DNA of 64,000 nt from Nitrospira japonica (GCA_020723105.1 DYJL01000017.1:1-64000), one strand, 5' to 3'. Positions 56,108-64,000 are shown, counted from the first letter of the stretch. Program-made: numbers and translations. The notes: a model not told the origin generated them from the letters alone.

Positions 56108-56587
56108 ATGGTTAAACAATGGTTAATGGTAACAGCAGCAGTTACCCTGCTTGTAGCAGGTATTGCCTTCGCAGGATCATATCCTGACGATCTGACACAG
56201 CAATTTATGGCTTTCAAGGCTGATGGAGAGGCGGGAAAAGAAATGCCTGCTGCTCTGGAAGGGGTACATACTGCCACAACCAATGAAGCCTATAAGATGT
56301 GGAAAGAGAAAAAGGCTGTTATTCTCGATTGCCGTCCTAAGTCGCAATATGACACTGAGAGGATTCAGGGCGCAGAGCTTTTTATAGCTGACGACTTTAT
56401 CAGCAATCCTTCTATGGCAGAAAAACTTGACAAGAACAAGACCTATCTTCTTTATTGTAACGGAGTAAAATGCTGGCGTTCGACCTCAGTAGCTCTTATA
56501 CTTGCCAAACATTTTGGTTTCAAAAATATCTATTGGTACAGAGACGGCATCATGGACTGGAAGAAAAACAGTTACCCTATTGAGTAA
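56108..56587 (+). CDS. Secreted rhodanese-like protein
   Basis: A 159-residue protein with a cleavable signal peptide (1-22, ending IAFAGS) and one rhodanese domain (about 50-155). The active-site loop is YCNGVKCWRS with the catalytic cysteine first and a second cysteine five residues later. AVILDCRPKSQYDTERIQGA is the typical start of the fold. Periplasmic rhodaneses handle sulfane sulfur. A good GGAGGG ribosome site precedes it. A weak hairpin (AAGGGGTAATGG with TTACCCCT) follows. Confidence 0.85.
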   Translation: MVKQWLMVTAAVTLLVAGIAFAGSYPDDLTQQFMAFKADGEAGKEMPAALEGVHTATTNEAYKMWKEKKAVILDCRPKSQYDTERIQGAELFIADDFISNPSMAEKLDKNKTYLLYCNGVKCWRSTSVALILAKHFGFKNIYWYRDGIMDWKKNSYPIE

Positions 56588-60276: not shown

Positions 60277-61992
60277 ATGAAAAAAAATATCTACATCCTG
60301 ATTGCGGCAGCGCTTGCTCTTGTCTTTACGGTAGGCCTTTATTATTCAAAAGTAGATGCCCAGACTGAAAAGGCCTCTGCCAAGACAGCAGTTCAAAAAG
60401 AGAAAGACGTCAAGGCGGAGACATGCTATGAATGTCATGACCAGATTCAGGAGCTCCATAAGATGGGGAAACATTCAAAGGTCAATTGCGCGAACTGCCA
60501 CAAGGAGCTTGACAAGCATCTGAAGGCCGCGGAAAACCAGACACCGGAAACAAGGCCTGTAACTGACACATCATGGGAAGCCTGCGGCCAGTGCCATAAG
60601 GAACAATACGAGACATTTATGAAGACCGCCTATCACAGGCCGGCGCGTGATGAAAAATCACAGCTTACAAACAGGTCTCCAAACCCATTCTGGGACAAAC
60701 TGATGGCAGGTCACGGCTTTACAAAAGAGCACAACCTTACGAGAAGCCATAACTGGATGCTTACAGATCATCTCATAGTTGACAGGGCCTATGGCGGAAG
60801 ATTCCAGGGTAAAAACGGATGGCAATATATATTTGAGACCGGCAAGGCTTGGGACATACTCCAGGATAATTATCCGGATGTTGCCGAGCACAAACCTTTT
60901 ATTCCGCAAAGCGCCGCTGCTGCAAATCCTGTGTGTCTGCAATGTAAAACGCAGGACCAGATACTCAAATGGTCGTACATGGGCGACCCTGTTCAGGGCG
61001 CAACATGGTCCAGAACCTCAAAGGTATTTGAATTTGTCAAAGATCTCCAGCACGGACTTAACTGCTTCTTCTGTCATGACCCTCACGCTGCAAAGCCGAG
61101 AATCGTAAGAGACGGTTTAATTGATGCGCTCACAAGGCCTGAAGCGGATACACTCTGGCATAAGGATCCCAACAGAACAGGGATAAAGGTTATTGACATG
61201 GGCATGAGAGGCTTTACAAGGAAGATCGCTCTGCTCGATAAATATGACACAAGACTTCAGTGCGGACAGTGCCATGTCGAGTACAATTGCAATCCGGGTT
61301 ATGATCCGAAGAATCCTGACACGTCGAAACCCAATGTTACAATGGCTGACAGAAGGACCAACCATTTCCCGTACAAGGATGTATTTGAGCTCTATGATCA
61401 TTATGTAAATAAAGTCAGCTTCCTCGATTTTAAACATGCCATAACAGGCGGACTGCTCTGGAAGGCCCAGCATCCTGAAGCTGAAGTTTATTACAATTCT
61501 AAGCATGCAAAGGCCGGAGCAGGCTGTGACAGCTGTCATACGCCGAAGGTAAAAGACAAAAAAACCGGAAAGGTCTACACCTCTCATTTCGCGGTCACTC
61601 CAAAAGTCCAGCTTAATGACACCTGTCTTAAATGCCATCCCAAGTGGACCGAGGAACAGGCGCGGTATGCGATTGATTCTGTAAAAGCCCATATACGGGG
61701 CAAAATGAGAAAGGCTGAATACTGGCTGTCAACACTGATCGACAGAATCGCAGCAGCCAAGAAGGGCGGGGTAGATGCCGAGATCATAAAGCAGGCGCAG
61801 GACCAGCATCTCAAGGCACATATCCTCTGGGAATTCTGGACTGCCGAGAATTCAGACGGTTTCCATAATCCCCAAATGGCAAAGGAATCTATGACTAAGT
61901 CCATTGACGAGTCCCAGAAAGGCATCAAGATCATCGATGACGCGATGGCGCCCAAACCTGCTGCTGCAGCACCGGCTGCACCGGCAAAGTAA
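60277..61992 (+). CDS. Octaheme nitrite reductase (ammonia-forming)
   Basis: A 571-residue secreted multihaem protein with a signal peptide (1-29). It has eight haem motifs: CYECH (50), CANCH (71), CGQCH (103), CLQCK (220), CFFCH (263), CGQCH (329), CDSCH (417) and CLKCH (450). The single CxxCK at position four, after three N-terminal haems, is the pattern of octaheme nitrite reductases such as TvNiR; pentahaem NrfA lacks the first three. The active-site tyrosine (Y336) is followed by N and C338, matching the Tyr-Cys crosslinked pair known in TvNiR, and KAQH (396-399) gives the catalytic histidine. It reduces nitrite (or hydroxylamine) to ammonium in the periplasm. The C-terminus ends in an Ala/Pro tail. 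Confidence 0.92.
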   Translation: MKKNIYILIAAALALVFTVGLYYSKVDAQTEKASAKTAVQKEKDVKAETCYECHDQIQELHKMGKHSKVNCANCHKELDKHLKAAENQTPETRPVTDTSWEACGQCHKEQYETFMKTAYHRPARDEKSQLTNRSPNPFWDKLMAGHGFTKEHNLTRSHNWMLTDHLIVDRAYGGRFQGKNGWQYIFETGKAWDILQDNYPDVAEHKPFIPQSAAAANPVCLQCKTQDQILKWSYMGDPVQGATWSRTSKVFEFVKDLQHGLNCFFCHDPHAAKPRIVRDGLIDALTRPEADTLWHKDPNRTGIKVIDMGMRGFTRKIALLDKYDTRLQCGQCHVEYNCNPGYDPKNPDTSKPNVTMADRRTNHFPYKDVFELYDHYVNKVSFLDFKHAITGGLLWKAQHPEAEVYYNSKHAKAGAGCDSCHTPKVKDKKTGKVYTSHFAVTPKVQLNDTCLKCHPKWTEEQARYAIDSVKAHIRGKMRKAEYWLSTLIDRIAAAKKGGVDAEIIKQAQDQHLKAHILWEFWTAENSDGFHNPQMAKESMTKSIDESQKGIKIIDDAMAPKPAAAAPAAPAK

Positions 61993-62004
61993 TTAACTTC
62001 AAAA

Positions 62005-62029
62005 AAGGCGGAGCATAGTGCTCCGCCTT
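62005..62029 (+). terminator. Hairpin after the nitrite reductase gene
   Basis: Two perfect 11-bp arms AAGGCGGAGCA and TGCTCCGCCTT around a 3-base loop, 12 bp after the stop codon. Only a weak T-tract follows, so it may terminate partly or protect the mRNA end. Confidence 0.7.
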
Positions 62030-62068
62030 CTGATTTTACAAGATGGGGAAGGGGGTGAAATTTTAGAT

Positions 62069-62554
62069 ATGAAAAAATTTATTTTACTCTTTGTAATCGG
62101 CTTGGGAATTGTCTCATTCTTTGCTTCAACAGGCAGCGGCCATAACAACAGCTCTCCCAATTTTGAATGCAACACATGTCATCAGGGTGAAGGCTCTGCT
62201 GAGATAAAAATTGACGGCCTGCCAAAGAAATATGTCCCCGGCAAAGTTTATAAAATGACATTGATAATCGAAAGCGGCAATCAAAGTTTCGGTGATAACG
62301 CAGGCGGATTTGCCATGGAAGCCTCGGCGGGCGAACTTGTGGTGACTGATAACAAAAATACACAGATAAGCGAAGGGCTTCTGACTCACACACAGGAGGG
62401 CGCAGCGTTAAGAAAATGGACCTTCGGATGGAAGGCCCCGGCTGATAAAAAAGATGTTGACCTGACCATAATGGGTGTAGCTGCAAATGGAGATTTTTCG
62501 CCGGTCGGCGACGTGATAGGAACGGAAGGTTTAACAATTATGCCGGAGAAATAA
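62069..62554 (+). CDS. Monohaem secreted protein with Reeler-like domain
   Basis: About 161 residues. The start is MKKFILLFVIGLGIVSFFAS, a signal peptide (cleaved near SGS), with GGGGGTGA upstream; the frame also opens at 62018. After it comes one haem-binding motif CNTCH (about 37-41). The rest (DGLPKKYVPGKVYKMTLIIES, then GGFAMEASAGEL, then WTFGWKAPADKKDVDLTIMGVAANGD) matches the Reeler/choice-of-anchor V beta-domain. The combination suggests a small periplasmic electron carrier or a docking protein. It lies between the nitrite and nitrate reductase genes. Confidence 0.8.
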   Translation: MKKFILLFVIGLGIVSFFASTGSGHNNSSPNFECNTCHQGEGSAEIKIDGLPKKYVPGKVYKMTLIIESGNQSFGDNAGGFAMEASAGELVVTDNKNTQISEGLLTHTQEGAALRKWTFGWKAPADKKDVDLTIMGVAANGDFSPVGDVIGTEGLTIMPEK

Positions 62555-62598
62555 ACATGGGTTGTAAAGAGAAGAGAAAGTGAAAGCAGGCAGTATGA

Positions 62599-62635
62599 AG
62601 TAAGCAGTAAGCACGGTAAGTTTATTCTGCTTACT
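62599..62635 (+). terminator. Hairpin between the monohaem gene and napA
   Basis: AGTAAGCAG and CTGCTTACT arms with a 19-base spacer, followed by ATTTT. The arms belong to a low-complexity AGTAAGC-type repeat, so a terminator role is uncertain. Confidence 0.45.
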
Positions 62636-62661
62636 ATTTTAAACAAGGGAGGTGCTGACAA

Positions 62662-64000
62662 ATGAAAATTACCAGAAGAGATTTTCTAAGATATAGCGCG
62701 ATAACAACAGCCGCTGCGGCAGCAGGCATAACAAAGCCTGAAATGCTTCTTGCGGCTTATGGGGTGAAGGCGCTACCAGTAGGGCAATGCAGATATTGCG
62801 CTGTCGGCTGTACGATGATCGCGGACTGCGAGGTAGACGCTGCGGGAAAAGTTACAAAGATACTCGCCATCAAAGGTGACTTGAAAAGTCCGGTTAACAG
62901 GGGTGTTCTGTGCACAAAAGGTTTTTACCTTCACAAGGCGATGGCCTACAAGGACAGGCCCAAAGGCGCGCTTATCAGAAAAGAGTGGATCAACCCTGAG
63001 ACCGGAAAGCCTGACATGACAAAATCCCCGAGGGTGCTGCAGGGGAAATCAACCAAAGACGTAGCAGGCGCAACGCCTTCGGAAGTTGATATGAAGGAGA
63101 ACTTTGTCCTCGTGCCGTGGGAAGACGCGGTAGATTTTGTGGCTGACGCGATTGAAAAATCCATAAAGAGCTACGGCAAGCACAGCGTCGCGTTTTACGG
63201 CAGCGGACAGCTTGGCACTGAAGAGACGCATATTATGAACAAGGTTTTTAAAGGCGGCGGTATGCTGGCCAACAACGCCATCGAAGGCCAGCCGAGGATG
63301 TGCATGGCATCGGCAGTTGTAGGCTACCTTTATGCGTTCGGCAAAGATGAGCCTTACGGGTGTCTTGATGATATAGACGTTCCTGATCCCGATTACGGGA
63401 AACACGCCGATACTTTCTTCCTCATCGGCAGCAACACTGCGGAGGGGCATCCGATAATATTCAACAGGATCGCTGCATTAAAGTCAAAAAATCCGAATGT
63501 AAAGATTATCCTTGCCGATCCGAGAAAGACGCGCTCAGGAACCATTGCCGATCTGTGGCTGCCCTTTGCAACAGGCAGGGACCTCGTCCTTATCAATTCA
63601 ATTGCGTATGTTATTGCGCATGAGCTTGATGGCGCAAAGGCTGATGTTGAAAACGGCACTGTCGAGGCAAAGTGGAAATATCTCGATAAGAAGTTTATCG
63701 AAAAACACGTGAGTTTCGGCATTCATGAAGATGTGAAGAAGACGTGGATAAAAACAAATTACGGCGGCACAAGGGAAGCTGCATGGGATTTGACCTATAC
63801 CGCAGAGCCGAGGAAAACATATCCAAGTCCAAAGAACAAATATGCGTCGGAAGATGAAATAATGAAAGACCTCTACAAGGGTTTCGCGGTATTCCTGAAA
63901 TTCCTTGAAGATTATAAACCCGAGAAGGTAACCGATGTGATCTTTGAAGGCGAATCTCCGCTTGTCTATGACAAGGCAACAAGGACATGGAAGAAAATAA
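62662..64000 (+). CDS. napA: Periplasmic nitrate reductase catalytic subunit (partial)
   Basis: The first 446 residues of a molybdopterin enzyme, cut by the window end. A Tat signal (TRRDFLRYSA, residues 4-13) starts it. A 4Fe-4S site has CRYCAVGC (43-50) and CTKG (84-87). GQPRMCMASAVVGY places the molybdenum-ligand cysteine at 214, and FGKDEP and IGSNTAEGHP follow NapA closely. Relative to short NapA it carries an extra stretch around 108-145 and another around 330-400. The ribosome site is GGGAGGTG. With the octaheme enzyme it would convert nitrate to ammonium. Confidence 0.9.
   Translation, partial: MKITRRDFLRYSAITTAAAAAGITKPEMLLAAYGVKALPVGQCRYCAVGCTMIADCEVDAAGKVTKILAIKGDLKSPVNRGVLCTKGFYLHKAMAYKDRPKGALIRKEWINPETGKPDMTKSPRVLQGKSTKDVAGATPSEVDMKENFVLVPWEDAVDFVADAIEKSIKSYGKHSVAFYGSGQLGTEETHIMNKVFKGGGMLANNAIEGQPRMCMASAVVGYLYAFGKDEPYGCLDDIDVPDPDYGKHADTFFLIGSNTAEGHPIIFNRIAALKSKNPNVKIILADPRKTRSGTIADLWLPFATGRDLVLINSIAYVIAHELDGAKADVENGTVEAKWKYLDKKFIEKHVSFGIHEDVKKTWIKTNYGGTREAAWDLTYTAEPRKTYPSPKNKYASEDEIMKDLYKGFAVFLKFLEDYKPEKVTDVIFEGESPLVYDKATRTWKKI

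Follow-up and report, generated by a model that had tools for sequence, protein, structure and literature searches.

Which enzyme turns nitrite into ammonium in a genome that carries a nitrate reductase and no nrfA? The question is raised by a 64,000-nucleotide stretch of Nitrospira japonica DNA (GCA_020723105.1 DYJL01000017.1:1-64000; the window), in which a gene for a multihaem cytochrome (onr, 60277–61992, plus strand) lies shortly upstream of a napA-like gene. A first-pass annotation of the sequence had proposed that an octahaem cytochrome c nitrite reductase (ONR) here replaces NrfA. Our analysis gives a probability of about 0.82 that the locus is a periplasmic module for dissimilatory nitrate reduction to ammonium (DNRA), in which NapA and ONR would work together with a NapGH menaquinol dehydrogenase, a carrier of the choice-of-anchor V type (CAV) and a hairpin that would set the ratio of the two enzymes. 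The grounds are gene content, motifs, homology, conserved linkage and a covarying hairpin; from these we infer the reactions, the electron route and the roles of CAV and the hairpin.

Identity of the onr product

The onr gene encodes a protein of 571 aa with a signal peptide, and was assigned by its haem motifs, a fold search and homology to TvNiR, the ONR of Thioalkalivibrio nitratireducens. CxxCH motifs were found at residues 50, 71, 103, 263, 329, 417 and 450, and a CxxCK motif, the fourth in order, at residue 220. The latter, CLQCK (residues 220–224; 60934–60948, plus strand), would hold the Lys-ligated active-site haem, and its K224 is invariant in 21 ONRs. By motif and alignment, Tyr336-Asn337-Cys338 (61282–61290, plus strand) is the counterpart of the Tyr-x-Cys pair crosslinked in TvNiR, and KAQH (residues 396–399; 61462–61473, plus strand) supplies the active-site His, which lies between the sixth and seventh haem motifs (C329 and C417). 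All of these motifs lie exactly where the first-pass annotation had put them. In the numbering of this protein, R156, K224, Y336, Q398 and H399 were invariant in 21/21 aligned ONRs.

The Y-x-C pair was present in 98 of 99 ONRs, and Tyr336 is probably crosslinked to Cys338 in the window protein. The sole exception, encoded at L149:9464-11245 on the minus strand, reads VEYIGNP instead of VEYNCNP and lacks the crosslink Cys; this protein is a natural test of the purpose of the Tyr–Cys bond.

When all PDB sequences were searched with phmmer, TvNiR (2zo5) matched residues 43–560 with an E-value of 1.3e-162, which rules out a chance occurrence of the ONR motifs, and the ONR of Trichlorobacter ammonificans matched at 8e-153. 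NrfA chains aligned to the C-terminal part of the protein alone, at about 1e-22 or weaker, and no hydroxylamine oxidoreductase (HAO) or octahaem tetrathionate reductase (OTR) was among the hits. Identity to TvNiR in a full-length alignment was 49%. The score in the NrfA equivalog model was 99 against a cut-off of 595. A Foldseek search with an AlphaFold model (pLDDT 72.9) placed the structures of TvNiR, TpNiR and TaNiR on top, with NrfA far behind and weak matches to non-NrfA multihaem proteins. In a tree of 107 rows, a long branch with full support divided all ONRs, including TvNiR, from NrfA.

Could the protein nevertheless be a pentahaem NrfA, or a HAO-like or tetrathionate reductase-like cytochrome? 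The Pfam family Cytochrom_C552, which matches it, spans both NrfA and ONR and would allow the first of these. Such an identity is set against eight haems with CxxCK as the fourth, full-length similarity to TvNiR as opposed to a weak C-terminal similarity to NrfA, and a position outside NrfA in the tree; against a HAO-like or OTR-like identity, neither family appeared in the PDB sequence search, and fold matches outside NrfA and ONR were weak. We regard these identities as refuted, with a residual likelihood close to nil. Judged by its sequence, the product is a genuine ONR, as the earlier proposal had it.

TvNiR and the ONR of Thioalkalivibrio paradoxus (3sxq) share with the window protein the haem pattern HHHKHHHH, the segment CHVEYNCNPGY, KxQH and homology over the full length. 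They differ from it in position, since the window ONR sits beside a nap cluster and in another, larger ONR clade, where its nearest kin stand at 80–86% and Geobacter-type ONRs at about 69%. The first-pass annotation had considered the enzyme best known from Thioalkalivibrio. The window ONR was matched in 76 of 150 sampled relatives, the majority of the matches being ONRs, and ONR with an identical haem pattern has been reported from 14 bacterial phyla and one archaeal phylum (PMC10716430). ONR is widespread rather than centred on Thioalkalivibrio.

The gene cluster downstream of onr

The window belongs to contig C35, which extends 4.4 kb beyond it and ends at 68386, and the cluster is complete there, with the order onr, CAV, napA, napG, napH, napD on the plus strand. 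CAV (62069–62554) encodes a secreted choice-of-anchor V protein of 162 aa with one CxxCH motif, which scored 100 bits against a cut-off of 42 in NCBIfam NF041895. Its CxxCH, H108 and M136 are invariant in 11 orthologues, and H108 and M136 could be candidates for the second haem ligand. The first-pass annotation was correct in placing onr upstream of napA on the same strand, but the two genes are not directly adjacent because CAV intervenes.

The napA gene starts at 62662, passes the window end at 64000 and runs on to contig position 65997. It was assigned by homology, its Tat signal and conserved residues, and encodes a long form of 1111 aa. Family searches identified napG (contig 66157–66930), napH (about 66911–67876) and napD (67890–68150). 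The first two of these had been anticipated in the continuation of the contig, as had napB, which was found neither there nor elsewhere in the genome by family search.

The long NapA retains the Tat signal (RRDFL, Tat HMM) and the CMASA motif. Its [4Fe-4S] cysteines C43, C46, C50 and C84, the Lys after the last of them (K86) and C214-M215, with the Cys expected to bind Mo, are invariant. Its best solved relative among PDB sequences was the NapA of Desulfovibrio desulfuricans (E 3e-125), well ahead of formate dehydrogenases. In a tree it joined 767-aa NapA forms with a support of 91/90, although on a branch of 1.22 and with long outgroups, and it has about eight inserts relative to these forms. 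An AlphaFold model made with 10 close sequences had a mean pLDDT of 36.5. Its sequence identifies the protein as NapA-like and a member of a divergent clade.

The genome is a 94-contig draft of 3.13 Mb with completeness scored at 100% and contamination at 0.86; gene absences are based on family searches. No nrfA was found, as the earlier proposal supposed: the sole PF02335 protein is the window ONR, next to which there is a decayed second copy on contig C88. Nothing scored above the cut-off for narG, and the only two NIR_SIR proteins come from neighbouring genes that resemble dsrA and dsrB.

Exchange of nitrite reductases ahead of napA

We searched a genome collection with the ONR and examined the best 80 of 334 stretches together with their flanks. 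The partners of ONR among these 80 loci were CAV with long NapA and NapGHD, a NapA of 767–820 aa, a NapA of 920–930 aa, and a Geobacter-type nap cluster upstream of onr. In the 767-aa type (L158), a small tetrahaem cytochrome lies between onr and napA, in the same place as CAV.

To avoid a bias towards ONR, the gene position ahead of CAV was surveyed in 150 relatives with the long NapA as query. It was present at 70% identity or more in 24 relatives besides the window genome, some of these being fragments at contig ends, and the position ahead of CAV was visible in 23 of the 25 genomes. In 22 of these 23 it held a gene of a haem nitrite reductase type: ONR in 18, NrfHA in two (G086 and G053) and a HAO-family octahaem protein in two (G006 and G049); one genome (G140) had none. 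In G002 the onr gene is divergently oriented, and G049 has a further gene in between. The NrfH–NrfA pairs stand directly ahead of CAV and long NapA (L143:7933-9879, minus; L142:3047-5032, plus). The HAO-family proteins (L145:9690-11147, minus; L144:3773-5197, plus), one of them within the genus of the window, have CxxCH in all eight motifs, and their best PDB match was 4qo5 (E 1e-47 and 5e-43).

CAV-napA-napGHD, with a NapA of 1111 aa, has been conserved as a unit among related genomes. When ONRs were counted as two groups according to how closely they resemble the window protein, giving four slot types, the long-NapA tree required eight changes of type, the minimum possible being three. The NapA next to the HAO-type gene of L145 and that next to the ONR of L049 are sisters with a support of 100/100, both in the window's genus. 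As we read these loci, different nitrite reductases are exchanged ahead of one nitrate reductase. Of all the context evidence gathered here, this argues most strongly that ONR would act on nitrite from NapA, since the substitutes have one plausible substrate in common. A wider reading, for which we see even odds, is that CAV, the 1111-aa NapA and NapGHD form a distinct Nap type in which a monohaem carrier replaces NapB, NapC or NapM, and that this would be a fixed nitrate-reducing chassis of Nitrospirota into which varied nitrite reductases (at least two ONR lineages, NrfHA and the HAO family) were repeatedly plugged at the same gene position.

A conserved hairpin between onr and CAV

Folding and comparison with relatives revealed a hairpin with a perfect 11-bp stem 3' of onr (62005–62029, plus strand), similar to a terminator or attenuator, with a fold z of -3.1. 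Among relatives whose onr is on the same strand, most had one at the equivalent position and a few had none. In 12 aligned hairpins, 120/120 cells paired, which is partly by construction as the hairpins were selected for pairing. Changes on both sides occurred in 5 of 10 pairs, compared with a mean of 1.8 after shuffling (0/500 shuffles); slid controls never exceeded 2. The motif has a single occurrence in the 3.1-Mb genome, and a role as a general genome terminator was rejected on that ground. A hairpin fixed in sequence was rejected too: the hairpin at this place in the HAO-type locus L145 is unrelated, and the divergent onr of L161 also has one at its 3' side. No promoter could be assigned. 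FNR-, HcpR- and Dnr-like sites upstream of onr were absent from the window and all but absent from its close relatives. We favour reading the hairpin as a 3' element that belongs to the nitrite reductase gene and would either terminate transcription in part or stabilise the mRNA, and with such an element read-through into CAV-napAGHD would still be possible.

Proposed function and alternative explanations

In the module that we propose, NapA would reduce nitrate to nitrite at a Mo-bisMGD centre, and ONR would convert nitrite into ammonium by a single six-electron reduction at its Lys-ligated haem, where the active site would include Tyr336, Arg156 and His399. Menaquinol is probably oxidised by NapGH, and NapD would be the chaperone of NapA. 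For a soluble carrier to NapA, perhaps also to ONR, CAV is the strongest candidate, because there is no NapB, NapC or NrfH; the main reason for assigning it this role is that the tetrahaem cytochrome takes its place in the 767-aa NapA loci. The hairpin probably sets the ONR:Nap ratio, either by partial termination or by stabilising the 3' end.

Several points weigh against the proposed module. The compared genomes are mostly metagenome-assembled. The first-pass annotation treated onr and napA as a single run; the conserved hairpin after onr speaks against a simple onr–napA transcript, and in one congener (L054/L161) onr is divergent from CAV-napAGHD. The long NapA falls below the curated NCBIfam equivalog cut-offs for NapA (445 vs 904 and 420 vs 930 bits) and stands on a long branch, which makes its substrate less certain. 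TvNiR also acts on hydroxylamine and sulfite, so detoxification is possible. It might be, then, that ONR chiefly detoxifies nitrite, NO, hydroxylamine or sulfite in a sulfur-cycling bacterium, with Nap as a separate unit that lies downstream by accident. The separation of onr from the CAV-nap genes by the hairpin and its divergent orientation in the congener would suit this explanation, and so would the dsrAB-like pair and the many relatives that have onr without any nap gene within 10 kb. We nevertheless consider it unlikely, since the slot is refilled by NrfHA or a HAO-family protein when ONR is absent, a pattern suggesting that all of them use nitrite supplied by NapA.

Slightly less likely again is that the 1111-aa protein is a Mo-bisMGD enzyme for some oxyanion other than nitrate, and that ONR reduces something else in concert with it. 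The low equivalog scores and the distinct, insert-bearing clade lend themselves to this idea. It is harder to reconcile with the Desulfovibrio NapA as best solved relative, ahead of every formate dehydrogenase, with the retained NapA signature of Cys, Lys and CMASA, and with the NapD, NapG and NapH homologues alongside and a nitrite-reductase-type gene nearly always adjoining.

Comparison with known systems

Reduction of nitrate to ammonium by Nap and ONR is an established route and not new. One report describes Nap coupled to ONR without NrfA in T. ammonificans, as in the window genome, and, citing Sorokin 2023, onr immediately 3' of nap in Trichlorobacter lovleyi (PMC11972089). In the window, onr instead comes first, NapA is the divergent 1111-aa form, and the monohaem CAV is inserted. 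Desulfurivibrio alkaliphilus and D. dismutans likewise have NapAGHD and ONR, which proteomics ties to growth on nitrate (PMC12142623); by locus tags, nap and onr are apart in D. dismutans (RS11645-11630 and RS04220), whereas in the window they are together. The earlier proposal of a DNRA route in which ONR replaces NrfA was supported in part, the route itself being already published for Trichlorobacter and Desulfurivibrio.

The monomeric NapA of D. desulfuricans (2nap/2jio) has 723 aa compared with 1111 aa in the window protein. It functions without NapB and has tetrahaem NapM or NapC as partners, in place of which the window has the monohaem CAV. In Nautilia profundicola, nitrate ammonification proceeds via a reversed hydroxylamine module, reverse-HURM (PMC3701875). 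NapA is there coupled to a HAO-family octahaem protein, an arrangement paralleled by the slots of G006 and G049, although Nautilia belongs to a different phylum and the window uses ONR, not HAO. A survey of aquifer Nitrospirota discussed NrfAH and found napAB common in Thermodesulfovibrionia; the word octaheme is absent from it (PMC11033732).

Other observations in the genome

The decayed onr (L005 7900–8320, minus strand; G000 contig C88:49900–50320) has its first ~50 codons fused out of frame to its last ~85, with ~430 codons gone; it may be a genuine relic or the result of misassembly. After it come a second napD and an OmpR-type response regulator in convergent orientation. On C35, the C-terminus of a response regulator follows napD on the opposite strand (L004 9151–9386; contig C35:68151–68386) and breaks off near the contig end. 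The two loci look like duplicated nap regions because a response regulator of the same type lies 3' of napD at both.

Two weak matches to NrfH/NapC were rejected as homologues, being ten-haem proteins with a NapC/NrfH-like N-terminal anchor (L045:850-1743, minus strand, contig C88; L046:1084-2076, minus strand, contig C9); they are possible quinol-oxidising cytochromes. A few genes upstream of onr, an exported rhodanese-domain protein is encoded at window positions 56108–56587. Two formate dehydrogenase-like Mo enzymes with one in-frame TGA each (G000:C6:3908-4426 and G000:C86:23288-23767) are perhaps selenoproteins.

Significance of the proposed module

In the open-access literature searched, we found no report of the unit of CAV and long NapA or of the exchange in the slot ahead of it. 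The novelty lies in the form that the module takes in Nitrospirota, with a long NapA accompanied by CAV, a conserved hairpin and an exchangeable nitrite reductase slot. The repeated exchange ahead of one NapA unit provides gene-context evidence that ONR and the HAO-family proteins of this slot act on nitrite made by NapA, and these natural slot swaps would allow enzyme choice to be set against growth conditions. DNRA retains nitrogen in ecosystems, and it is usually nrfA that surveys look for; scoring by nrfA only would call this genome, and many similar Nitrospirota, non-ammonifiers.

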